Below, one piece after another: positions 1-13,346 of a DNA stretch of 22,277 bases. Numbering within the stretch: position 1 is the stretch's first letter; each line of letters opens with the position of its first letter. The notes beneath the pieces are model-generated. The model was given only the letters and a program-made list of their open reading frames with translations. It did no database searches and was not told where the DNA came from. The position numbers and the translations under genes are program-made. The stretch is from a virus. The stretch lies in IMG/VR virus record IMGVR_UViG_3300033996_001049, positions 1 to 22,277 of that record; one strand, given 5' to 3'.

Positions 1-1161
1 AGACGCACCCAGCATTTTGGCAACGACGCGTACGAAGTCGCAAGTCATGCTGTCTGCGAGCGCATCGGCGTGATACCGAATGATTCGGGAGAGGGTATCG
101 GCGTGAAGGCTTGCAACGCCTGATCCCAAGCCCGTCGAGCCTGTTTCGGATGAGAGGGATTGTCCAAGGATTGCTTCTTTAATCTTGCCGCTGAACCAGT
201 TCACAAGTTCCATAAAGACTTGTGCGCGTCCTGCGTTTGGTTCCTTGATGTCAATGTCGTACACCTTCTCTGTGCCGCTCTGCGGTAGCAAAACGCTATT
301 GTCGTTGGTCAGGTTGGCAAGCACGTTTTCCATCATCGTGCGTCCTTCATCCTGACCGAGCGGGTAATAGCCGACGCGGATACCCATGGCGTACCGCTCT
401 GCATACGTGATGGCATCTTGCAGGATTTCCTGCTTCGCTAGCCACATGAACCAACAGACATCTCGCGCTCCCACTCCGCGATAGATGCTTTCGGTTGAGT
501 TCGGGTCGTTGAAGTCGGGAGCGTTAATAAACACCCGATGCAGAACGATGGCCTTTCGCTCCATCTCGTTGAAGATGTGTACGCGGCTGTCGAATCCGAT
601 GTTTTGCGAGGATGGCCCGTCCGCGCTGTACTGCGATCCGACGCGGATGGCGAGATTCCCGCGCTGATCGTAGGCGAGCGTGTCGGGGTGGAACGGATAC
701 CACTCCTTCACGGCAACCTTGGTGCTTTCATCACGTCGATAGACGATGTTGCAAGCGGAGTTTCCGTACCACACCGCTTCGTGCATCGAACGCACGAAAT
801 CTGACCGCCGTGGCATTGCATCAAAAATCTTTGAGATTTGTGCTGCTAATTCCTGCCCTGCGGCATCCTGTTCATCGGTGCAAGTGATTGCCCATTCCAG
901 CGATGCAAGCGTGACCTGTAGCGAACGTAAGACACCTTCAATATCTGCGTCCGACCGCATCATCTGCTGATACTGCGGGTTAAGGCGGTACGCGATGCTG
1001 CTGTTCCGCAACATTTTGTCTGCGGTCGTCAAGAACGAACGCTGCACCTCAACCGCCGTTGCAAGCGGTTGCGTGATGCCACGATCAACGGGTGCTTTCA
1101 GCGGCTTGCGTGGTCGTTTTGCAGGTTCAAGACCGTTGGCTAAAGGATTGCTGTTTGCCAT
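1..1161 (-). CDS. Phage portal protein, DUF935 / Mu gp29-like (3' end outside window)
   Basis: The reading frame opens at an ATG at 1161 and stays open to the window edge, giving 387 visible residues of a portal protein cut at its C-terminus. Portals form the dodecameric ring at the capsid vertex through which DNA is packaged and ejected. Family signs are an N-terminal segment 'VEGVLRSLQVTLASLEW'-like (about residues 75-90) and the strongly typical stretch 'ILGQSLSSETGSTGLGSG' near residue 345, which matches the 'LGQTLTT..G..GS' signature of DUF935 Mu-like portals. A single base separates it from the stop of the upstream gene, and an AAGGTAG sequence about 11 bases upstream is a weak ribosome binding site. 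The order terminase, then three other genes, then portal is unusual. Family assignment is by remembered motif, not by search. Confidence 0.86.
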   Translation of the reverse strand, partial: MANSNPLANGLEPAKRPRKPLKAPVDRGITQPLATAVEVQRSFLTTADKMLRNSSIAYRLNPQYQQMMRSDADIEGVLRSLQVTLASLEWAITCTDEQDAAGQELAAQISKIFDAMPRRSDFVRSMHEAVWYGNSACNIVYRRDESTKVAVKEWYPFHPDTLAYDQRGNLAIRVGSQYSADGPSSQNIGFDSRVHIFNEMERKAIVLHRVFINAPDFNDPNSTESIYRGVGARDVCWFMWLAKQEILQDAITYAERYAMGIRVGYYPLGQDEGRTMMENVLANLTNDNSVLLPQSGTEKVYDIDIKEPNAGRAQVFMELVNWFSGKIKEAILGQSLSSETGSTGLGSGVASLHADTLSRIIRYHADALADSMTCDFVRVVAKMLGAS

Positions 1162-1162
1162 T

Positions 1163-1948
1163 TTAAACAACTACCTTCTGCGCGATGACTTGCCACTGCA
1201 TTGTTTCACCCGCAACGCCTGTAACCTCAAGTTCCACGGCATTATTATTAAACGCAATGTTTGCGTTCAAAGAGGCATTCGTTTCGCCAACTACAACCTT
1301 TTCAGAATTGACAAGGGCATAGAATACGCCTTGTCCAACAAAGTAAGACCTGTAAGCCGTTGTAAAGCGATACGCACCTGTTGTTGTACCTGCGCTATTT
1401 GACCCAATTACAAGAAGTGACATACACGCCGATTGCCCACCGGAGATCGGCAAATTTGGTACTAAGGTTTCAAGATTGACAGCAACTGTACTTGCGCCGT
1501 TAGTTTGGATAGGCGTTTGCAATCTTAAATTTTGCAATGCGATGGGAAGGTAATCATATGCCCCTACGCGCTGCGCCCAAAAAATCTCTCCGTACTCTGC
1601 ATTCTCTGATGCAACAAAAAACGCTCGTTCCAACTCATTTGGGTTGATCGGACGTACTAAGCCACCTGCGTCAAAAGTGACAAGTTGCCCAGCAACAATT
1701 TGGTACGAACCCGCACACTTTAATTGCACGAATTGGCCGTTTTGAAGAACAACGGGTTCTCCTGTTTCTGCGTGAGCAGTTTTGTTAAAGCCGCGAACTG
1801 ATCCATCAGCAACTCCTACAAACGCATTTGTCTTGGCATCACCAGCATTAGTAACTTCGACCTCGAACGAACTGCTCATTCTCACACACGCAAACGGAGA
1901 AATATTTTCTGCGGCAATGAAATTAGGGGTGTTTCCTGCGGTGCTCAT
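1163..1948 (-). CDS. Putative head decoration / head-fibre protein (DUF2190-like N-terminus)
   Basis: This 261-residue protein starts at the ATG at 1948, which has a good ribosome binding site (AGGAG, 7 bases upstream). An in-frame start at 2026 would overlap the gene before it and lacks such a site. The first ~120 residues are beta-rich and small-residue-rich, with 'NAFVGVADGS', 'GEPVVLQNGQFVQLKCAGS' and 'AGQLVTFDAGGLVRPI', the pattern of DUF2190-type capsid decoration proteins. The last ~100 residues (from 'NLPISGGQSACMSLLVIGS' on) look like a separate beta-sandwich ending in 'MQWQVIAQKVVV', of the kind found at the tips of phage fibre or surface proteins. A two-part head-fibre protein is my inference. 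It sits directly before the portal gene. Virion surface role likely, exact role uncertain. Confidence 0.5.
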   Translation of the reverse strand: MSTAGNTPNFIAAENISPFACVRMSSSFEVEVTNAGDAKTNAFVGVADGSVRGFNKTAHAETGEPVVLQNGQFVQLKCAGSYQIVAGQLVTFDAGGLVRPINPNELERAFFVASENAEYGEIFWAQRVGAYDYLPIALQNLRLQTPIQTNGASTVAVNLETLVPNLPISGGQSACMSLLVIGSNSAGTTTGAYRFTTAYRSYFVGQGVFYALVNSEKVVVGETNASLNANIAFNNNAVELEVTGVAGETMQWQVIAQKVVV

Positions 1949-2394: not shown

Positions 2395-4248
2395 TCAACG
2401 AATGATTTTGTCGCCTACGTAGAACAACCAATGTTGCAAACTACGGATAACCTCAACTGCTTTTTCAGTGTTTCCGTTGCGTAGGTCGCTCAATGCACTA
2501 TTCAACGCATCATTCCACCGCGACGTTTCTGCGTTCCAAGCAAACTCTGACTTGCCGCTTTCGCGTGAATTCGTAGTCTTGCCTTCAGCCCAACGTGCGA
2601 ACAGGTTGACGGTGTGTTCCTTGCCAACCTTGGTTGCAAGTTCCATCAGCCGCTCGTCGTTCTGCGGGTTGCTTTCACGGGAATCCGCGCCGATGGCAAA
2701 CGCTTCCGCTTCGCCAACGCGGGAGAAGGAAGAGCGAACACGTTGGAGATTGCTCAATTCAATCGTCGCATCTGAAAGTGCGTTCGTGTCCTTCTTCACC
2801 TTTGCAACTGCCAACTTGCTTTCAATGCCTGGAATGTCTTGAATTGCGCCTTGAATTTGGCGAACTTTGTCGTAACAACTTTCCTTGAAATCATGCACTT
2901 CTTGAAGTCGTTGCGAGAGTTCTTGATCCTTGTAATTCGTCCAACCAAGTGACTGATTGAACGCGGACTTGCTGCTTGTGCTTCTTGCAAATGACCTACG
3001 GATGTTGTCTGCATTTGCTAGAACTTGTCGCGCTTTAAGGAAATCACCTTTGTTTTGGTTACGAATTGCTTGCTTCATGATGTCAATCCATCGAGGCAGA
3101 GTGCGCACCTCCATGTCATAGATTTCATGCCGCTTCTGTTCGCATTTCTTGATGAGTTCTTCGGCATCACGGATGTACTGATTTGCTTCACGCTCATACT
3201 CAGCATCCCATTGTGCGTTGAAACTGGCCTTTGACTTTTCAAAGCGGGCCTTCGCGCCTGTAAGGGAAAACTGTGAGTTGGAACTTGATTGCGAACCCAT
3301 AATGATGTCCTCAATCATTTGCATTTTCCCTTGAGTCGTATACGGAGGAGCGTTATCTACAGTTAGGTGCGTGTCACCCCTGCTTCGCATCGTGTTAAGC
3401 CAAGTTTGCACTAACTGCTGCCGCGTAGTTTTCATTAGTTGCCTGTAATCTTCACCCTTCAAGTGAAGAGGGATGGCGAATCGCTCTTTCGCGCTTGTGC
3501 GAGAAGCAGCGAATGCCGCTTCGACTTCGCGACGGTTGTATTCGGCGTTAATAATGTCGGACGCCATCGAATCCTTATCCATCTCGCTCATATTCCCGCC
3601 TACTTCAACCCGACCACGCTGCATCTTCCGCTGCCATAGCGCAAACAACTCGGACTTCGGCATCTTCTTCAAAGCCGTGTACCGAGCGCGGATCTCATTA
3701 AGTCTGTCAAACGCCGACTTACCACCGTTCTCCGCGATCCAATCTTCCGCTTCATGTTTGCTTTCAAACTCTTCAATAGAAATGTTTGATGGTCGTCGAG
3801 CGTCGTGAACTTCCCAGTATCGCCCTAGCCCACGCTCTTGAACTTCCCATATTGAGAATGGCCCATACGAAGCGACTTTATGTCGATCGAACTTATGCTT
3901 TTTTGCGTGCTTCGCATTCTGTGAGGACTTCGAAAACGCTTTCGCTTCCTTTAACTTGACTTGAATCGCTTGCATTTCTTTGTTGAGGCGATCAATAGCG
4001 CGAAGTTGCTCATTCTTTTTGTACTCATCGGTAATTCTCGGCAACGCGGCTTCCATGGCGTTTACTGCGACGCGATACCGATACAGCCTGTCACGTAATT
4101 CGGGGATTTGCTTGCGCAACTTTTCCTGTTCGAATGACGGACTTCCCTTGCGGATAGGTAATTCGTCAGGATGAGCAAACTGACTAATTACGTCGGGTGA
4201 TTTGCAAATGCTTTCCACGCGTATGCCCCTTGAAATGAGGTAATGCAA
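2395..4248 (-). CDS. Large coiled-coil protein of unknown function (phage, between terminase and portal)
   Basis: A 617-residue protein that I do not recognise. The first possible start is a TTG at 4248. A GTG at 4218 (residue 11) has a better ribosome binding site (AAGGGG, 7 bases upstream) and may be the real start. Residues ~40-110 and long later stretches (~345-400, ~420-500) are charged and predicted by eye to be helical coiled coil. Between them, residues ~125-180 form a compact aromatic module ('PFSIWEVQERGLGRYWEVHD', then 'FESKHEAEDWIAENGGK') that looks like a small alpha/beta domain of the sort found in phage polyvalent proteins. That resemblance is an impression. The gene follows the large terminase after a 26-base gap and precedes the sigma-like gene. 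Packaging, scaffold or injected-protein roles are all possible. Confidence 0.6.
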   Translation of the reverse strand: MHYLISRGIRVESICKSPDVISQFAHPDELPIRKGSPSFEQEKLRKQIPELRDRLYRYRVAVNAMEAALPRITDEYKKNEQLRAIDRLNKEMQAIQVKLKEAKAFSKSSQNAKHAKKHKFDRHKVASYGPFSIWEVQERGLGRYWEVHDARRPSNISIEEFESKHEAEDWIAENGGKSAFDRLNEIRARYTALKKMPKSELFALWQRKMQRGRVEVGGNMSEMDKDSMASDIINAEYNRREVEAAFAASRTSAKERFAIPLHLKGEDYRQLMKTTRQQLVQTWLNTMRSRGDTHLTVDNAPPYTTQGKMQMIEDIIMGSQSSSNSQFSLTGAKARFEKSKASFNAQWDAEYEREANQYIRDAEELIKKCEQKRHEIYDMEVRTLPRWIDIMKQAIRNQNKGDFLKARQVLANADNIRRSFARSTSSKSAFNQSLGWTNYKDQELSQRLQEVHDFKESCYDKVRQIQGAIQDIPGIESKLAVAKVKKDTNALSDATIELSNLQRVRSSFSRVGEAEAFAIGADSRESNPQNDERLMELATKVGKEHTVNLFARWAEGKTTNSRESGKSEFAWNAETSRWNDALNSALSDLRNGNTEKAVEVIRSLQHWLFYVGDKIIR

Positions 4249-4274: not shown

Positions 4275-5726
4275 TCAGGCGAAAAATGGACGGCTAACGG
4301 TTTTCGCTCCAAACATCCGAGCCACGGCATCTGATTTATTAAATCGCGGGATTTGGCAATCAACGCGGCTTAAAGAACCTCGGACGGCTTCGCTGCACAG
4401 ATCGGATATAACGTCTACTGTGTCATCGTGTGCTGCGGCGGGGAATGACACCATCTCTTCGATAACGGGCTGAAATGCCGACAAAACTCGGCCATCATTG
4501 TCCATAGGGAACTTCAATTTCCCATCCTGAACAAACGGCTGTACTGCTGCGGCTCGGATGTGTTTGTCTTTAGTTCGCTCGACAGACATCATTGGGAAGT
4601 TGGTAATGGTCTGAAATTGGTCATAAATGCCTCTTTGCGGCCCATTACCCTCGGCCAATACAACCGATACCCCACGCCGTTCTAAAAGGTCTTTTGCCAT
4701 ACGTGCGAACGCAGGGAAAGTCTCGCGCACTCGTAGGCAATCGGTGATGTACAAATCCTTCTTGTTATCGACTTCCCCAACGATACATACGCTGTAATCA
4801 GGCTGCGTACCTGATTGCTGTTGTTTCCCGTATCCCCAATCGATTGCGGCGATTTTTCGTGTGACCTTTGGTAGTTCGTCTGACCTGTAGTATTGGAACC
4901 ATTCGGGTCGGAAGATAAGGAGATCGCTTGAGAGCGGTACGAGTTCGTATGCACGACCGTACGCCATAGCCCCCATCTTGCGGTATTGCTCTGACAATTC
5001 CTCATGTCGGAATACTTCTGACCACGGGCTAACTCTCAACCCGTTGTCAACGAAGCATGGCAATCGAAGTATGGTTCCCGATTCGAAATGAACCCGTCGC
5101 AACTCCGCCGTAATGTCATCGGTGTGATATGGGGTAGCGGTATTCCAAACTCGCGGTTTGAATGGCCCTCTTGACGCGATATCTCGCATCGGCATCCAGT
5201 TGCTGTAGTAAGCCTCTTTGACTTTGGCGCGTTCGGCTGGGATAAGAACCGCATTGCGGAGGTCGGAGATATCATCCGTCCATAGGATGTCAAAACGACC
5301 TCCTGCTCGTCCCATAATTCCTAATGCTTCAACTGTGGGGTCGCGGTTTCCGCGAGTTGCCAATGTCAATCGCCAGTTTGCTTTGGATGTATCGCCCTTA
5401 CGGATTTGAATGTGCGGGAAAACCGCTTTGTATCTATCCGACTCAATGATCTCTCGGATCATCCCAGCGGTTTTGGCTGATTCGGGATCGGTTGACCCAA
5501 CGATTTTGATACGCAGAGTCGGGTAATGCCCGAGCAACCAAGCGATTACGAGTGCGCCTGTGGTAGTTTTCCCATGTCCACGGGGCAGTTCGGCGTAACA
5601 ATCCTTGTTATCGATTAGGTATGAGATGAGTTGAGCGTGCATCGCCCCTATGGGTCGCCCCATAATTAGGGCGTTGAACGCCAACGGGTTCCGCCGAGCC
5701 TCGTTGATCGCTTGTTCGGGGGTCAT
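4275..5726 (-). CDS. terL: Terminase large subunit (packaging ATPase-nuclease)
   Basis: This 483-residue protein drives DNA packaging: an N-terminal ATPase powers translocation into the procapsid through the portal, and a C-terminal RNase H-like nuclease cuts the genome. Seen directly are a Walker A motif 'LPRGHGKTT' (residues 47-55), a Walker B motif 'FDILWTDD' (about 145-152), and nuclease-type acidic motifs 'AAIDWGYG' (about 300) and 'AAAHDDTVD' (about 440). Length is normal for the family. It starts at an ATG at 5726 that overlaps the stop of the upstream gene by four bases (ATGA), the usual small-to-large terminase coupling. The nuclease motifs look intact. Confidence 0.95.
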   Translation of the reverse strand: MTPEQAINEARRNPLAFNALIMGRPIGAMHAQLISYLIDNKDCYAELPRGHGKTTTGALVIAWLLGHYPTLRIKIVGSTDPESAKTAGMIREIIESDRYKAVFPHIQIRKGDTSKANWRLTLATRGNRDPTVEALGIMGRAGGRFDILWTDDISDLRNAVLIPAERAKVKEAYYSNWMPMRDIASRGPFKPRVWNTATPYHTDDITAELRRVHFESGTILRLPCFVDNGLRVSPWSEVFRHEELSEQYRKMGAMAYGRAYELVPLSSDLLIFRPEWFQYYRSDELPKVTRKIAAIDWGYGKQQQSGTQPDYSVCIVGEVDNKKDLYITDCLRVRETFPAFARMAKDLLERRGVSVVLAEGNGPQRGIYDQFQTITNFPMMSVERTKDKHIRAAAVQPFVQDGKLKFPMDNDGRVLSAFQPVIEEMVSFPAAAHDDTVDVISDLCSEAVRGSLSRVDCQIPRFNKSDAVARMFGAKTVSRPFFA

Positions 5727-6190
5727 TTGCAGGATTGTCGGATCGTCTGAACGACTGCGGACAATGCTTCGGGGGTAATTGATGCTACGGAGATGTTTTC
5801 GGTAGCCATGCCGTCATCTAGGCGTTGCACTCGATCAAGATCAACGGATGCCCCGATACCGCTTTCCTGTACTTTAAGTAAGAACTCTCTAGCGCGGGAA
5901 CGAATCCTGTCATCGGGATTCGCTAGGTCTTTGACTGCGGTCATGCAAGCCACCTTCATGGCATCGAACGGGACATCCAACGCAAGAGAAATTGCCCGTT
6001 GCAGCATGACGTACGCGCCGCGACGTCGATGCGGATCTTGAAATGACTCAATAATGGCAGAGCCGCGTGTGGCATCCTGATTTGCGCTGTCGACCTGTTC
6101 AGCGGTTTTCTTATAAGTGCGCTTATGAGTAGCAGGGGTATTTTCCGCTACCTCGTTTGCATTAAGAGAAGTGCGTTTCTTTACTGACAT
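5723..6190 (-). CDS. terS: Probable terminase small subunit
   Basis: A 155-residue basic protein placed directly before the large terminase and overlapping it by four bases. The small subunit recognises the packaging site and loads the large subunit. The first ~35 residues are basic and low in order. The central part (residues ~50-115, 'RGAYVMLQRAISLALDVPFDAMKVACMTAVKDLA' and 'RSRAREFLLKVQESG') is helical and leads to a short acidic C-terminus. I see no classical HTH signature, so the call rests mainly on position and size. The ATG at 6190 lies inside the last codons of the preceding IbrB gene (10-base overlap), so packaging genes are translationally chained to the IbrA/IbrB cassette. Confidence 0.62.
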   Translation of the reverse strand: MSVKKRTSLNANEVAENTPATHKRTYKKTAEQVDSANQDATRGSAIIESFQDPHRRRGAYVMLQRAISLALDVPFDAMKVACMTAVKDLANPDDRIRSRAREFLLKVQESGIGASVDLDRVQRLDDGMATENISVASITPEALSAVVQTIRQSCK

Positions 6191-6837
6191 GGAACACCGT
6201 GTTCTTTATGCAATTTGACTTGATGACGTGTTACCCAAGCGGCCTTGTACGATACGTCAGCAAACAACTTTGAGAACCCTGTAATGTGTTTGAGTCGGAG
6301 GAGTTCTTCGGGTTCCATCCCGAGTTCGTTGCAAATGTCGGCATCCGCCCACCCATTATGCAACATCTCAAATACAAGGTTTGACATCCCTGACACGGAG
6401 TGTTTGCCACGGGCGCGGTTGTGCCTAACGGTAGAAGCCATGCGGTCGTTCATCCCCTTGTTTAGGACAACGATTGGCAAGAGTCCCAAGTTTCGGTCTC
6501 GAATGTCTTTCCGAGTCTTACAGGTGTAATACCTGTGGAACCCGTCAACGATCTCATACATGTCGCGTTCGGCGTTGTAGACGGTAACAACTGGCTGTGT
6601 ATACCCGTCATGCAGAATGCTTGTGTAAAGCAAACTCATTTCATGTTGCGCGACTGAATTTGGGTTGTAGTCGTTGGGGGTGACTTTCTCGACCGGAACC
6701 CATCGAACTAAGTCAATAGGTTGCGATTGCAGCGGTGAAATGTTGTGAAGCGCCTCACGAACATCGCGCAAGAACTGCACCTTGTCCTCTGCTGCGTTAA
6801 AGGCTTCGGTAATCTGTTGGATGATTTGCGTGTTCAT
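6181..6837 (-). CDS. ibrB: IbrB-like ParB/sulfiredoxin-fold protein
   Basis: A 218-residue protein with a ParB/sulfiredoxin-fold domain at about residues 45-145. Visible are 'WVPVEKVTPNDYNPN', the phosphate-binding-type motif 'DGFHR' at 98-102, and 'RHNRARG' at 138-144, followed by a short helical HTH-like part ('WADADICNELGMEPEELLRLK'). The pattern and the direct partnership with an IbrA-like gene match IbrB, first named in E. coli as a regulator of immunoglobulin-binding protein genes and known as an IbrA/IbrB pair on phages and islands. The biochemical role is not established. It overlaps the ibrA stop by four bases (ATGA) and the next gene by ten. ParB-fold proteins can bind or hydrolyse nucleotides or cut DNA, and I cannot tell which applies here. 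Confidence 0.82.
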   Translation of the reverse strand: MNTQIIQQITEAFNAAEDKVQFLRDVREALHNISPLQSQPIDLVRWVPVEKVTPNDYNPNSVAQHEMSLLYTSILHDGYTQPVVTVYNAERDMYEIVDGFHRYYTCKTRKDIRDRNLGLLPIVVLNKGMNDRMASTVRHNRARGKHSVSGMSNLVFEMLHNGWADADICNELGMEPEELLRLKHITGFSKLFADVSYKAAWVTRHQVKLHKEHGVPCQ

Positions 6838-7991
6838 GGCTTTGCCTCAATGACGTATTTGCCGCTGTAAATTTCGTAGTTCGGGTCACTTTTTCTGCGG
6901 CGGTAGAGATGTCTTTGAGGTGATCGTTCCCAGTTTCCGATCTTGGTCATGTAATGATCGTTCGCAAGCACGGCAGAGATTTGCGCTTTGAACATATCGT
7001 TCTGATCGGGGTATTGGTCATACACCTCATCCATTTGCGCGAACTTGCGCTGGAACTTGTTCCTTGCTTCTTCGGTGGCAAGCAAGTTGCAAACCAAGTA
7101 ATCCCTGTACTCCTTCCATGATTCAAACATAGGAGGCAGGTTTTTGACCGTCATAAACGCATCTTCACGTAGTTGAGCAGCCATCTTTACGCCGCCAATG
7201 CGCTTGGTCAGTTTGTTCCACACTCGAGGTTCAAACTCCTGCATAAAGTAGAGAGATCGGACGGCGGTTTCGTGCGTTACGTTGCTAACGCGCATGTTTC
7301 GAATCGGAATGCCGTACTGAAACATGGTGTCGTAAAGGCTGCAATACTCCCATTTGTTCTCATGGATGGCTTTCCATACATCCGAGTAACACCAATCATA
7401 GATTGGGTAAAAGGTGTATTGCTCGTATCGCCTGTCAAGGATTTTCCCATACGAGATGTGCTTGTAGGTCTGATTTGATGTCAACCCGACGTATCGGGTC
7501 ATAGATTCATCCGCTCGCATCCCGCTCAAGTAACACATCTTGGTTTTGGGGAATGTGACCCTTGCGAACGCTGTAAACATTTCGGCAAATCGATCAGTGC
7601 CGTATATGTTTTCTTTGAGAGAGTTTGGTTCCTGCTCTCGTATCCAATCCTTTTGACGGGTTGGGTCCCAACATTTCAGCCATTGTTCTGCAGCGGATGT
7701 GGCATTAAAGATATTGAATGGGACTTGCAACCAGTATGGCTGAATTCGTGGGTCATTCATGACCTCTCGGATGTAATCAATCGCGCTGTCCCACTCGGCT
7801 TCTTGGTCAAGGAACATGACCTTAAGTGGGAGTCTTTTCCTTTCAGTAGCGATTTGAAGTGCTAGGTTAAATACAACCGTTGAATCTTTGCCGCCTGAGA
7901 TGCCAACTACCACTTCTTGAAACTCATCAAAGAGGTAATTGATGCGCTTGATTGCTGCGTCATAAACATTCGTCTTGAGGTAGATCTTCAC
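6834..7991 (-). CDS. ibrA: IbrA-like PAPS-reductase-family protein (PP-loop ATP pyrophosphatase)
   Basis: A 385-residue PAPS-reductase/adenine-nucleotide-alpha-hydrolase family protein. The PP-loop 'SGGKDST' is at residues 32-38, followed by 'KVMFLDQEAEWDSAIDYI', typical of PAPS-reductase-like folds. The middle holds 'YLSGMRADESMTRY' and 'YPIYDWCYSDVWKAI', seen in IbrA/DUF3440 proteins. Length is close to the family norm (about 400). Such enzymes activate sulfur or a substrate by adenylation. DndC, in DNA phosphorothioation, is a relative. The gene starts with a GTG at 7991 that overlaps the methyltransferase stop (GTGA), with AGGAGG 8 bases upstream. Its tight link to IbrB, a methyltransferase and another ParB protein points to one functional cassette. 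The substrate is unknown. Confidence 0.87.
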   Translation of the reverse strand: MKIYLKTNVYDAAIKRINYLFDEFQEVVVGISGGKDSTVVFNLALQIATERKRLPLKVMFLDQEAEWDSAIDYIREVMNDPRIQPYWLQVPFNIFNATSAAEQWLKCWDPTRQKDWIREQEPNSLKENIYGTDRFAEMFTAFARVTFPKTKMCYLSGMRADESMTRYVGLTSNQTYKHISYGKILDRRYEQYTFYPIYDWCYSDVWKAIHENKWEYCSLYDTMFQYGIPIRNMRVSNVTHETAVRSLYFMQEFEPRVWNKLTKRIGGVKMAAQLREDAFMTVKNLPPMFESWKEYRDYLVCNLLATEEARNKFQRKFAQMDEVYDQYPDQNDMFKAQISAVLANDHYMTKIGNWERSPQRHLYRRRKSDPNYEIYSGKYVIEAKP

Positions 7992-8803
7992 TTCCTAATC
8001 CTCCTGACGATGTAATTCCCGAATCGCTCATCGGTTTCTAGCACTTGATGGCTATATGAGTTTGGTCGTTCGGTGTTTGTGCGTAGATATGTCACGGGCG
8101 AGTAATCAGGCGCGTAGAACATCAAGGTTGCGCATCCACCTTCGTTCAGCATCCATGGGATCCGCTTGAGGTGATCTTCATGGATGTATGCAGCCACGCC
8201 AAACAATGCGACTATGCAGTCATATCCCGTTCCATAGAAATCTTCGAATGAAGTTCGAATTACTCGTTCGCTTCGTTCAGGATGTTTCCGCTTGAGTTCT
8301 TCTAGCATTGCCCCTGAAATATCAATGCCTGTATAGGACTCAGGGTTGCAGTAATCTAGTAGTAACCCTGTCCCGCATCCGACATCTAAGACACGGCCGT
8401 ACTTTGGAACTCCGCACATCTCTACCGCTTCTTTTGATTGCGACTCGCTTGCCTTGTCGTTAAACAGCGAGTCGTACACGAATGCGATATCGTCATACGG
8501 GTTTGGGTATTTCTTTTGCGCCCTGTTGATGAGTTCTGTGGCTTCAACGGTTGCGTTGTTATCCCAATGGTGCATACCGTTGATGTCTAGGTATGTGTAA
8601 GTTCGTCCAAAGAAACGGGTGGGGTACCCATTCTGTCGGACGAAACGGACGCAATCAGAGAACTTGCTGTCATCCCAATGCCTACGCAGCGTGTATTCAT
8701 GCGGGATTTTGGGCATGCTGCTTGCGAATTTGTATGGTGCGCTTGTCAGAGCCGCGCACATTTTGACGGCGTGTTCCCATTCAGATTGATTACGGACGAT
8801 CAA
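7988..8803 (-). CDS. SAM-dependent methyltransferase with N-terminal phage-associated domain
   Basis: A class I SAM-dependent methyltransferase. The best start is a TTG at 8803, with GGAGAGG about 9 bases upstream and a 14-base overlap with the ParB gene. The frame is open back to 8935, but that part lies inside the ParB gene and looks non-functional. From the TTG the protein has 271 residues. Residues ~20-85 form a small domain ('MPKIPHEYTLRRHWDD', 'GRTYTYLDINGMHHW', then 'ELINRA') that I recall as recurrent in phage proteins. The SAM-binding motif 'DVGCGTG' is at 140-146, then 'YTGIDISGAML'. No DNA-methylase catalytic motif (NPPY, DPPY or PCQ) is visible, so the target may be a small molecule, RNA, protein or an already modified base. 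Confidence 0.8.
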   Translation of the reverse strand: MIVRNQSEWEHAVKMCAALTSAPYKFASSMPKIPHEYTLRRHWDDSKFSDCVRFVRQNGYPTRFFGRTYTYLDINGMHHWDNNATVEATELINRAQKKYPNPYDDIAFVYDSLFNDKASESQSKEAVEMCGVPKYGRVLDVGCGTGLLLDYCNPESYTGIDISGAMLEELKRKHPERSERVIRTSFEDFYGTGYDCIVALFGVAAYIHEDHLKRIPWMLNEGGCATLMFYAPDYSPVTYLRTNTERPNSYSHQVLETDERFGNYIVRRIRK

Positions 8804-9362
8804 TTTTGAAGTCCTCTCCGCAATTAGGACACACGATGTCAATTTTGACGTTTGCGGAGGATGTGACATTGAATACGGAGTTTGCCCTGTCAATGTCCCG
8901 TTCCGTAATCTTGCTGTCTCCGAATTCAGGCTCAAGGATTGGTTCGTAAAAGTCCGCAGGCACGGAATTGACTACAGAATCGAGCATGGCATCAATTTCT
9001 GCGGCATCCCAGCCTGTAGCGTTTAGCCCTTCAGGACTCATTTCGTTTAAGAGTTGCTTGAGACGAGCATCATCCCAATCAGACAGTTCTGCTGTTCGGT
9101 TATCGGCAATAGCAAAAGCCGTTGCCTTTTCACCCTTGAGTTCAGTACGGACGCATTGCAGAGTTTGCCATCCCAACTTTTGAGCAGCGGCGAGCAGTCC
9201 ATTACCCGCAAGCACTACGTTGTCTTTTGAAATGACGATTGGCTTTTGCTGTCCGAACGCTTCAATACTTGCACAGATAGCGTCGATATTTCGCGCATCG
9301 TGTTTTCTTGCGTTTCGCGGATCAGAAGTCAGCAATGACACTTCAATTTCTTCGACCTTCAT
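8790..9362 (-). CDS. ParB-like nuclease-domain protein with C-terminal zinc-binding-like tail
   Basis: A 190-residue phage ParB-family protein. Residues ~1-90 hold the ParB N-terminal fold: 'DPRNARKHDARNIDAI', 'FGQQKPIVISKDNVVLAGNG' (GNG at 53-55 in place of the GxRR of plasmid ParB), 'AAAQKLGW' and 'AIADNRTAELSDWD'. The tail has a single CPNC pair (178-181) in 'VCPNCGEDFKI', which resembles half of a zinc ribbon and may bind a metal only as a dimer or not at all. In phages this fold is often fused to a DNA methylase. Here it stands alone with a separate methyltransferase gene just downstream. The ATG at 9362 has AAGGGA 7 bases upstream. Confidence 0.85.
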   Translation of the reverse strand: MKVEEIEVSLLTSDPRNARKHDARNIDAICASIEAFGQQKPIVISKDNVVLAGNGLLAAAQKLGWQTLQCVRTELKGEKATAFAIADNRTAELSDWDDARLKQLLNEMSPEGLNATGWDAAEIDAMLDSVVNSVPADFYEPILEPEFGDSKITERDIDRANSVFNVTSSANVKIDIVCPNCGEDFKIDRP

Positions 9363-11701: not shown

Positions 11702-12589
11702 ATGACCACGCCAACCACCCACTCGCAACTGCAATACGGAATTGAGATCGAATGTGGTATCAACTTCAACGTTGATATCATGGTCGGTCAACGCCGACAC
11801 GGAATTGAGCAACGACAACTTCCAGATTTCCAAGGGAAATTTTGGAAGGCCGAGCAAGATGGCTCGCTTCAATTTCGCGGTAGCCGTGGAGTCGAGTTTG
11901 TCTCTCCGAAGTTGCGCGGAAAAGAAGGTCTTGACAACATCACCGAAACTTGCAAGCGCATTAAGGCGATGGGTGGCAGGACAAACGACACCTGTGGACT
12001 TCATATCCATGTCGAGTTCCCAACGGATTCGATTGATGCGATGCGGCGCTTGACCAAATTGGTCGCCCGATTCGAAGTGGGAATCTTTGCAAGCACGGGT
12101 ACTCCACAACGTGCGCGTAACGGATTCTGCAAGCCCATCAAAGACCTAATGAAAACGCTGAATTGGGCTAGCGCGAGCCATAAGGAACATGTTTCATGGC
12201 ACCGCGGGTTCCGTGACCGATATCAAATGCTCAACTGGACGAACCTGATTGACGGCCGATTTAATGCTGTTGAGTTCCGAGCGTTTAGCGGAACCGTCAA
12301 CCCAAAGAAAATCGCAGCGTGGATCCGCATCTGTCTTACGCTTGTGCAGATGGCCCTTGACGGCGTTGAACCTGATTGGGACATCAACCCAACTACCCTT
12401 CAAAACACCACAGGAACGCTCGGAGAGTCCAATCTCCGATGCCTTTTCTTCTACTGTTGGAAGGGACAGCGCAGCAAGAAGCAGTATGGGGAACTTCACC
12501 ACGAAACTTACACGCTCGCGCAGGACATGAAAACCCTGCGGAACCTTGCTATCCGACATGACATCCGCGCAGGACTGCGCACTCAATAA
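11702..12589 (+). CDS. Amidoligase-family enzyme (glutamine-synthetase-like fold)
   Basis: A 295-residue protein of the Amidoligase_2 type. These enzymes use ATP to join a carboxylate to an amine, making amide bonds on peptides, proteins or small metabolites. Visible family motifs are 'YGIEIE' (12-17), 'DGSL' (53-56), 'GVEFVSP' (63-69), 'CGLHIHV' (98-104, probable metal ligands), a conserved 'RYQMLNW' (173-179) and 'EFRAFSGT' (191-198). Length is typical. The next gene is a class II glutamine amidotransferase, a pairing known for amidoligase operons (described by the Aravind group), in which the amidotransferase could supply ammonia or remove or exchange a glutamine amide. It is the first gene of its operon, with AAGGAAGGAA before the ATG. 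The substrate is unknown. Confidence 0.85.
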   Translation: MTTPTTHSQLQYGIEIECGINFNVDIMVGQRRHGIEQRQLPDFQGKFWKAEQDGSLQFRGSRGVEFVSPKLRGKEGLDNITETCKRIKAMGGRTNDTCGLHIHVEFPTDSIDAMRRLTKLVARFEVGIFASTGTPQRARNGFCKPIKDLMKTLNWASASHKEHVSWHRGFRDRYQMLNWTNLIDGRFNAVEFRAFSGTVNPKKIAAWIRICLTLVQMALDGVEPDWDINPTTLQNTTGTLGESNLRCLFFYCWKGQRSKKQYGELHHETYTLAQDMKTLRNLAIRHDIRAGLRTQ

Positions 12590-12608
12590 ACAATCAAGGA
12601 GATTGCAT

Positions 12609-13346
12609 ATGTGTGGCATTTTCGGACACTTTTCGTTGGAACCACTTCGTCGTAAGCACCTTGTTACGTTGCGAGAAGCGGCGCGTAGTCAGGTGATGCG
12701 CGGTCAAGACGCGTTTGGTATCGCTTGGTGTAGTGCTAGCGGTATTGATTCACACAAGCAACAGGGGTCAATCGCAGATCATTTGCAACACATGAAATTG
12801 GGGATAGGTAGCGTTGCAATGATCGGCCATACCCGCATGGCTACGCATGGCTGCCCATCAGAAAACATGAACAACCATCCGCATCGGTTTGCGATGCAGA
12901 ACAGCCCAGCGTACTTGGTGCATAACGGAGTCATTAGTAACTATGCGGAAATCTGTAGGCTTCGCGGATTGACAATGACTACAGAATGCGACAGCGAAGT
13001 TCTTGCCCGTCACATGGAGGACGGCAGGGGTGGAATCCTTAACAGGGTGAAAGCCGCTGTGCGAGACATTGACCCGTACGCGCCATTTGCCGCAGCAATC
13101 CTCACGCCTAATTACATCATTCTTGCGCGACGTGGAAATCCGCTTTACTGGTCAGAAACCCAATCGCAGCGATGGTTCGCAAGCACCCATCACGGGTTGA
13201 CCGGAAAGCATTGGTTAGTTCCTGACAACACGGCATTCAGCATTTCACTCAACAGTGGCGAGGTCGCAACTATTGAATTGGACAAGCGCATCCCATCAAC
13301 AATGCGTTTTCTCGGGAGCGACCTTTTTACGAGAGGGAACAAATAA
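12609..13346 (+). CDS. Class II glutamine amidotransferase (Ntn hydrolase)
   Basis: A 245-residue protein starting at the ATG at 12609, with AAGGAG upstream. The frame is open to 12546, but only this start puts Cys at position 2, the N-terminal nucleophile exposed after Met removal. It begins 'MCGIFGHFS'. Other motifs are 'GHTRMATHG' (73-81), 'NNHPHRF' (88-94), 'VHNGVISNYAEI' (104-115) and 'CDSEVLARHME' (127-137), all standard for class II amidotransferases such as PurF and AsnB. No synthetase or phosphoribosyl domain follows, so it is a stand-alone glutaminase unit. Released ammonia would go to a partner, most likely the adjacent amidoligase. All visible catalytic motifs are intact. Confidence 0.93.
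   Translation: MCGIFGHFSLEPLRRKHLVTLREAARSQVMRGQDAFGIAWCSASGIDSHKQQGSIADHLQHMKLGIGSVAMIGHTRMATHGCPSENMNNHPHRFAMQNSPAYLVHNGVISNYAEICRLRGLTMTTECDSEVLARHMEDGRGGILNRVKAAVRDIDPYAPFAAAILTPNYIILARRGNPLYWSETQSQRWFASTHHGLTGKHWLVPDNTAFSISLNSGEVATIELDKRIPSTMRFLGSDLFTRGNK

Follow-up and report, generated by a model that had tools for sequence, protein, structure and literature searches.

The closest published precedent for the cassette described here is, by analogy, the phage CmoX/CmoY system, in which CmoX, the adenosine monophosphate (AMP)-forming ligase CmoY and a ParBc protein are found in a context of DNA-cytosine hypermodification (accessible part of Nat Commun 2025, PMC12783734). The cassette itself lies in a stretch of viral DNA of 22,277 bases, the whole of which is called the window; it is IMG/VR record IMGVR_UViG_3300033996_001049, an uncultivated virus contig that may be a fragment. 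Organized around the gene pair IbrA and IbrB and joined by overlaps to the terminase genes, the cassette is probably a phage DNA-hypermodification system that combines an ATP-pyrophosphatase core with plug-in tailoring enzymes. Its likeness to CmoA, CmoX and CmoY, as far as the accessible text describes them, would consist of an ATP-dependent AMP-forming ligase, chemistry dependent on S-adenosylmethionine (SAM), a ParBc neighbour (frequent there, and of obscure role), and a handle that is then elaborated (PMC12783734). According to the same portion of that report, two things differ: in the Cmo system a C5-cytosine enzyme supplies the handle, a carboxymethyl group, and the ligase resembles asparagine synthetase (PMC12783734). 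IbrA belongs to a different PP-loop family and its tailoring enzymes are far more varied, while the 22 kb record, possibly a fragment, contains no PF00145 match for a C5-cytosine methylase. ParB-fold proteins also have a parallel in base modification in DpdB, described as a ParB-like ATPase for dPreQ0 insertion (accessible part of PMC12839542).

Two further systems invite comparison. The Dnd/Ssp systems likewise combine a PP-loop ATPase with a ParB-superfamily protein acting on DNA, but no DndA-type family match occurs in the record, and IbrA falls short of the DndC cut-off and lacks the DndC cysteine pattern. The IbrA/IbrB genes of phages and enterobacteria (phrog_2302/phrog_2159, DUF3440) are direct family members that share the gene pair and its order; in the portions of the literature available they are described only as possible regulators or virulence-linked genes, whereas here the pair is embedded with a small domain, MTn, and a slot for tailoring enzymes. 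A form of gene exchange has been described in variable metagenomic islands of cryoconite phages, where, from one variant of a single phage to another, an acetyltransferase replaces methyltransferase genes 'in the same region' (accessible part of Nat Commun 2020, PMC7468147); the same part of that account draws no link to IbrA or a modification pathway. No description of this core-plus-slot system was found in the open-licence literature of PubMed Central that was searched.

In the window, six minus-strand genes form a single overlapping run, with successive overlaps of 14, 4, 4, 10 and 4 bases:

8790..9362, minus strand: ParB-fold protein of 190 amino acids with a C-terminal CPxC; the first gene of the cassette, ATG start
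7988..8803, minus strand: methyltransferase of 271 amino acids, a slot enzyme fused to MTn; TTG start, PF13649 at 8.8e-10
8507..8803, minus strand: MTn, the small N-terminal domain of the methyltransferase gene, about 95 amino acids, with the motif PHxY...YWTMG...INR
6834..7991, minus strand: IbrA, by motif a PP-loop ATP-pyrophosphatase, with DUF3440; GTG start
6181..6837, minus strand: IbrB, the ParB-fold partner of IbrA; ATG start, motifs DGFHR and HNRARG
5723..6190, minus strand: small-terminase-like open reading frame (ORF), named by position and outside the modification core
4275..5726, minus strand: TerL, the large terminase subunit (phrog_38, 6.7e-64), which shares the transcription unit by overlap

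A reading made from the sequence alone had described the first four genes as one coupled cassette chained to the small terminase; the ORFs and every overlap it relied on were recovered, the terminase identity of the fifth gene being by position only. Ribosome-binding sequences are good, with GGAGAGGA ahead of the methyltransferase TTG and AGGAGG ahead of the IbrA GTG. Since a second IMG/VR contig carries the cassette proteins at 100% identity in unchanged order, and the order recurs in relatives whose IbrA is 45-65% identical, the cassette is neither a chance arrangement nor a misassembly.

To place the cassette among its relatives, an IbrA profile was built from five proteins and the best 80 of 555 viral relatives were taken; together with earlier loci, 86 were compared. 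Near-copies of the window were counted once, the window's own locus (L001) and its near-copies (L002, L008 and L010) being left out, and sampling by top similarity favours close relatives. The pairing of IbrA with IbrB holds through the 86 loci, as a rule accompanied by a second ParB-fold protein and MTn. IbrB starts within 60 nucleotides of the IbrA end in 73 loci, farther away in nine, and is unseen in four; a further ParB-fold gene is near IbrA in 78 of the 86 and TerL in 56, many loci being short. The interval between MTn and IbrA, or sometimes the position directly after IbrA, constitutes the slot. When counting was limited to the 58 loci whose upstream sequence exceeds 2.5 kb (the other 28 of 86 having 2.5 kb or less), 55 proved to hold enzymes of one or more of the ten groups defined by clustering: one group in 13 loci, two in 37 and three in five. 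A survey of IbrA/IbrB neighbourhoods had been suggested as a check in the sequence-only reading; its outcome is a conserved core with slot enzymes. The ten groups, under their working cluster labels, are as follows:

c5, glucosyltransferase: 28 of 86 loci; phrog_854
c7, DNA-amino-methylase-like: 21 of 86 loci; PDB profile matches to Mod (1.6e-6), DpnA (2.8e-6) and CcrM (1.8e-4)
c11, GNAT acetyltransferase: 15 of 86 loci; Pfam GNAT
MTn-methyltransferase fusion: 14 of 86 loci by enzyme-group count
c14, oxygenase-like: 13 of 86 loci; HxD...H motif, structural model and hydroxylase matches
c16, methylase-like only: 12 of 86 loci; weak Pfam matches
c18, glucosyltransferase: 11 of 86 loci; phrog_854
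lone methyltransferase: 8 of 86 loci
c23, GNAT: 6 of 86 loci; Pfam GNAT
c57, glycosyltransferase-like of a second type: 3 of 86 loci; named from its look alone

What the slot holds bears no relation to how closely the IbrA proteins are related. An IbrA tree was made for 45 of the 58 loci, after three without a slot enzyme and ten near-duplicates (at least 90% IbrA identity) were dropped; on it the slot combination changes 29 times, against 31 to 38 when shuffled. Individually, the observed and shuffled changes are 15 and 14.9 for glycosyltransferases, 12 and 12.0 for c7, 8 and 7.5 for c16, and 6 and 6.7 for c14. Over 44 loci, IbrA identity correlates with slot similarity at a rho of 0.013 and with IbrB identity at a rho of 0.31. 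Among the 20 pairs with IbrA identity above 70% the slots are more alike (mean Jaccard index 0.5), yet eight of these pairs share nothing. L059 and L073, for example, have IbrA proteins that are 81% identical and wholly different slots, one holding a glucosyltransferase and an oxygenase-like gene and the other c7 and c16. Methyltransferase and acetyltransferase occur together in none of 45 loci, the co-occurrence Fisher tests being uncorrected for kinship and multiple testing; yet this exclusion breaks down in three Microbacterium phages, Hendrix, Rasputia and Leaf, where both are present.

The slot also depends on IbrA, and this dependence counts against a regulatory explanation. Following the naming in E. 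coli, IbrA and IbrB could be a regulatory pair that co-activates prophage or host genes, with the slot an unrelated hot-spot for DNA-modifying genes. The annotation 'co-activator of prophage gene expression', the chromosomal IbrA-IbrB pairs that lack slot enzymes, and the regulatory setting of E. coli ybdNM, annotated as PAPS-reductase/DUF3440 and ParB-like (accessible part of PMC9068703), are all consistent with such a role. The glucosyltransferase and oxygenase families, however, occur almost only with IbrA. When glucosyltransferases served as anchors, IbrA was present in 47 of 48 loci with full flanks (31 of 79 were left out for short flanks, and 27 of these 31 also have IbrA). With the oxygenase as anchor it was present in 57 of 57 (three of 60 left out for short downstream sequence), and a glucosyltransferase accompanied the oxygenase in 53 of 55 with enough upstream sequence. 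Close relatives are favoured in these reciprocal searches because the queries themselves came from IbrA loci. A control anchored on the terminase retained 29 of 80 loci, those with 4.5 kb upstream and a terminase match, leaving out 51. Slot enzymes are found in five of five such loci with IbrA and in one of 24 without it (Fisher p 5e-5), the lone exception being L195, which has a c7 match; 23 of the 24 therefore lack them. MTn follows the same division (four of five versus none of 24), while generic ParB genes show no difference (two of five versus 12 of 24). Since the PP-loop catalytic motif is invariant as well, a purely regulatory role appears quite unlikely.

IbrA matches PF01507 (1.3e-14; 55 bits against a cut-off of 22.5), DUF3440 (2.1e-10; 41.1 against 25) and phrog_2302 (1.7e-86), a family named phosphoadenosine phosphosulfate (PAPS) reductase. 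Judged by its motif, it is an ATP-pyrophosphatase: the SGGKDS PP-loop at residue 32 is kept in all 81 full-length relatives. The name of phrog_2302, the PF01507 match and the usual annotation of the family would make IbrA an auxiliary metabolic gene for sulfate assimilation, but the CysH models fall far below their cut-offs (TIGR00434, 24.7 versus 165.1 bits; NF002537, 20.6 versus 154). Moreover, ECGxH, the catalytic motif of the CysH PAPS reductase, is absent from the window IbrA, the PP-loop is intact, and the link to ParB-fold and tailoring enzymes is constant. PAPS reductase was accordingly rejected as an identity and is scarcely credible as an explanation of the cassette.

The sequence-only reading had treated IbrA as a PP-loop relative of DndC. 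Membership of the PP-loop superfamily holds, while the closeness to DndC does not: the DndC model scores 27.3 bits against a curated cut-off of 290.4, and the conserved DndC cysteines, a 4Fe-4S set plus a dyad according to PMC10853773, have no counterpart pattern among the 81 IbrA relatives. Only Cys107 reaches 90% conservation (78/81), followed by Cys153 (49/81) and Cys217 (39/81). Identification of IbrA as DndC was thus rejected. A Dnd-like phosphorothioation, with sulfur inserted into the DNA backbone, might be suspected from the shared superfamily and from DndB, itself a ParB-superfamily protein. Besides the cut-off and the missing cysteine cluster, the 22 kb record has no PF00266 match for a cysteine desulfurase, although the record is possibly incomplete and the host might supply the enzyme, and glycosyl, acetyl and methyl caps would be hard to explain on a phosphorothioate; this chemistry is consequently very unlikely. 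By the tests run, cut-offs and residues together, IbrA belongs neither to the PAPS reductases nor to a Dnd system. As a separate observation, in L042 and L043 IbrA is broken into two reading frames (272 and 146 amino acids), possibly through decay of the system or a programmed shift; no slot enzyme was detected in L043.

Both ParB-fold proteins named in the sequence-only reading are present, the first matching phrog_620 at 3.1e-41 and IbrB matching phrog_2159 at 8.8e-72. Neither reaches the cut-off of the canonical ParB model TIGR00180 (37.3 bits for ParB and 21.7 for IbrB against 58.45), and a role in chromosome partition was rejected on this ground. The first ParB has a CxxC at 178-181, both cysteines of which are kept in 81 of 81 relatives. 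In IbrB the motif DGFHR is invariant (84/84), at the place that box II occupies in ParB; HNRARG is invariant by construction, because the 84 members had been picked by it.

These features bear on whether the cassette acts before replication, IbrA and IbrB making a modified (deoxy)nucleoside triphosphate for the phage polymerase and the ParB-fold proteins serving as nucleotide enzymes, in the manner of SerK and sulfiredoxin, instead of DNA loaders. The invariant DGFHR would suit such a scheme, as would a nucleoside-antibiotic hydroxylase (Z 7.8) among the fold matches of c14, and ParB-fold proteins can be ATP-binding enzymes (accessible part of PMC12704722). Set against it, the nearest relatives of c7 are DNA amino-methylases, whose substrate is polymer DNA, and no kinase or nucleotide-synthase gene was seen as a cassette member in the compared loci, so that action on free nucleotides is rather unlikely.

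Turning to the methyltransferase, it is one of several exchangeable enzymes and not a fixed part of the cassette; here it happens to be fused to MTn. An AlphaFold2 model of the fusion (predicted local distance difference test, pLDDT, 94.5) has two domains. The nearest solved structures to the methyltransferase half are small-molecule methyltransferases, among them CgnL, a phosphatidylethanolamine methyltransferase and TylM1. As had been noted from the sequence, the DNA-methylase catalytic motif is missing: [DNSE]PP[YFWC] is absent from this protein, and the record contains no PF01555 match. MTn is present in 60 of 86 loci, as a separate small ORF in 44 and fused to a methyltransferase in 16. 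Its sequence profile matched no Pfam family and no solved structure of note, but a viral protein of 93 residues, A0A516LRX9, matches part of the fusion model (TMt 0.82) and, judged by its length, would correspond to the MTn half as a solo homologue by fold. Among cultured phages neither the full-length window methyltransferase nor solo MTn found a match; the MTn-methyltransferase relatives in Microbacterium phages were found by profile only.

Taken as a group-transfer system, the cassette suggests a core that makes a handle on DNA and a slot that caps it. This is the simplest account because the ParB-fold partners are constant while the group-transfer partners vary, one of them being near the DNA amino-methylases. 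The cassette, its conservation and the slot, with its exchange and its reliance on IbrA, are shown by the comparison; that DNA is the target, that adenylation takes place, what the ParB-fold proteins and MTn do and what the system is for are inferred. IbrA would use ATP for the adenylation of a group, either on a DNA base itself or on a handle installed beforehand, after which AMP would be displaced by a nucleophile. IbrB and the second ParB-fold protein may act as nucleoside triphosphate-driven partners that bring IbrA to DNA or load the site, and MTn may offer the site or the product to the enzyme that finishes the group. The slot enzyme would cap the new group, with a methyl group in the window phage; in relatives the cap would come from acetylation, amino-methylation or glucosylation, the last often preceded by hydroxylation. 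Variation of the phage DNA surface against host nucleases is the likely purpose, and restriction evasion is plausible. By analogy with CmoY and TilS, both of which attach an amine or amino acid, the attachment of such a group is preferred over sulfur insertion, as an unproven guess, because the caps are of the kind placed on amines, amino-acid side chains and sugars. In base J, DNA is hydroxylated and then glucosylated, and the pairing of oxygenase-like and glucosyltransferase genes recalls this chemistry. The sequence-only proposal of a chemical modification cassette, whose most likely substrate is the DNA of the phage and whose core is the PP-loop protein IbrA, is in this respect strengthened by the comparative data.

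Several observations weigh against this account. In three of the 58 countable loci no slot enzyme was detected; the same holds for the loci in Klebsiella, Edwardsiella and Yersinia, which consist of the IbrA-IbrB pair, and for several isolate phages that carry the pair. The window methyltransferase, lacking the DNA-methylase motif, resembles small-molecule enzymes. Several slot labels are weak or at motif level: the best Pfam E-value for c16 is 0.0056, in two of nine members, and the best Z-score for c14 is near the level at which a match may reflect a common arrangement. The exchange of enzymes is not fully random, since the MTn-methyltransferase fusion (6 changes versus 8.4) and GNAT (8 versus 10.7) change less than most shuffles. 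Finally, the slots of L036 and L004 hold sugar-type genes, an epimerase and a TylF-like gene, that would fit a sugar or a glycan as target as well.

A rival reading has a target other than nucleic acid: the product of the cassette, or the molecule it alters, would be a sugar, a surface glycan, a small molecule or a protein, belonging to either host or phage. Sugar pathways commonly combine a glycosyltransferase, an acetyltransferase and a methyltransferase like TylM1 or TylF, along with a nucleotide-sugar epimerase, which is found here at one locus. Such a target does not account for the constant presence of ParB-fold proteins, the DNA-amino-methylase relatives in the slot or the position of the cassette beside replication or packaging genes; in addition, membrane-type segments are absent from the window cassette proteins and from 42 slot glycosyltransferases. 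A target of this kind is unlikely, and phage DNA is retained as the favoured one.

Some genes in the slot or near the cassette merit description in their own right. The family c14, which is not in the window, has an HxD...H triad (His85, Asp87 and His131) that is invariant in 11 of 11 members and a beta-rich model with a pLDDT of 90.8. Its best fold match is Pro-3-hydroxylase (Z 8.2, root mean square deviation 3.7, 121 residues aligned), and AspH is also matched (E 1.8e-4). As the basis is this motif, the model and hydroxylase matches, c14 is predicted, not proven, to be a double-stranded beta-helix oxygenase dependent on Fe(II) and 2-oxoglutarate. L036:1597-2559 encodes an NAD-dependent epimerase resembling GDP-mannose dehydratase, between the glucosyltransferase and the oxygenase; its place within the cassette hints at a sugar other than plain glucose. 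In L004 the gene at 3480-4016, likewise between glucosyltransferase and oxygenase, is a TylF-like sugar O-methyltransferase (PF13578, 1.6e-14). Usually a few genes upstream of the cassette, 19 of the 86 loci have a c8 gene (Amidoligase_2, typed from one member; L067:4689-5639 is an example) and 14 have a c13 gene (gamma-glutamyl cyclotransferase-like, typed from one member; L067:3487-3897 is an example). These are possible suppliers of an amide or amino-acid group.

Beyond uncultivated viruses, 28 loci were found in bacterial and archaeal genomes, and slot enzymes are present in all seven whose IbrA is at least 43% identical. More distant Firmicutes loci (L108, L109, L110 and L112) have IbrA, an IbrB-like gene and a DNA-methylase-like gene in a row, and three contigs of Asgard metagenome-assembled genomes have IbrA and IbrB with a weak methylase match on the opposite strand. 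Among cultured phages, 215 records contain an IbrA relative and 11 phages were examined. At the right end of their genomes, Hendrix, Rasputia and Leaf carry IbrA and MTn-methyltransferase together with glycosyltransferases and an acetyltransferase; at the left end of Hendrix are IbrB, two ParB genes and TerL. In the mycobacteriophage Kamiyu the order is ParB, two small genes, then IbrA, an IbrB-like gene and terminase, and Arthrobacter phage Shrooms, prophage prophi79-1 and Bacillus phage 031MP004 each have IbrA, at least two ParB-type genes and an annotated methyltransferase gene. In Streptococcus and Flavobacterium phages an SNF2-helicase-like gene lies near IbrA instead. Such a gene is upstream of IbrA in loci of the Firmicutes and Flavobacterium phage types (L108:3779-5185, L093:5782-7017, L092:4145-5356 and L096:5202-6401), which represents a second, different IbrA context.

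A mark for packaging, also raised from the sequence alone, is not borne out and is disfavoured: 24 of the 29 usable terminase-matched loci have no IbrA, and IbrA does not adjoin the terminase in the Streptococcus, Flavobacterium and Chlorobiaceae phages examined.

Whether IbrA, IbrB, ParB and MTn constitute the core of a large, unrecognised family of phage DNA hypermodification is an evenly balanced question. Such a family would have a handle that is perhaps an amine or amino acid and swappable caps that change as fast as a surface antigen, and would include the virulence-regulator IbrAB and many 'auxiliary metabolic genes' called PAPS reductases. Phage IbrA is annotated as PAPS reductase, and genes so named, whether or not they belong to the IbrA family, are discussed as sulfur auxiliary metabolic genes (a PAPS-reductase gene in PMC10434257, for example). 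If the proposal were true, a common, mis-named phage gene pair would gain a function, phage DNA modification would gain new chemistry and a new domain, and caution would be due before IbrA genes in viromes are called sulfate-assimilation genes. Related viruses swap finishing enzymes freely while keeping the core, which would help them to hide from bacterial defences, and this modular design would explain how phage DNA chemistry can change quickly. The cultured phages Hendrix, Rasputia and Leaf (Microbacterium) and Kamiyu (M. smegmatis) differ in caps and make the idea directly testable.

Of the remaining features, the small-terminase-like ORF at 5723-6190 gave no family match of its own in family and profile searches, although L011 has a homologue at the corresponding position. 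Nothing useful came from scans for Rfam families, tRNAs, promoters and terminators. About 2.3 kb from the cassette and on the opposite strand, a putative amidoligase (11702-12589, plus strand; PF12224, 1.6e-21) overlaps a class-II glutamine amidotransferase (12546-13346, plus strand; GATase_6, 7.2e-12). A Mu-type portal protein (1-1170, minus strand; PF06074, 3.7e-42) is truncated by the contig end.

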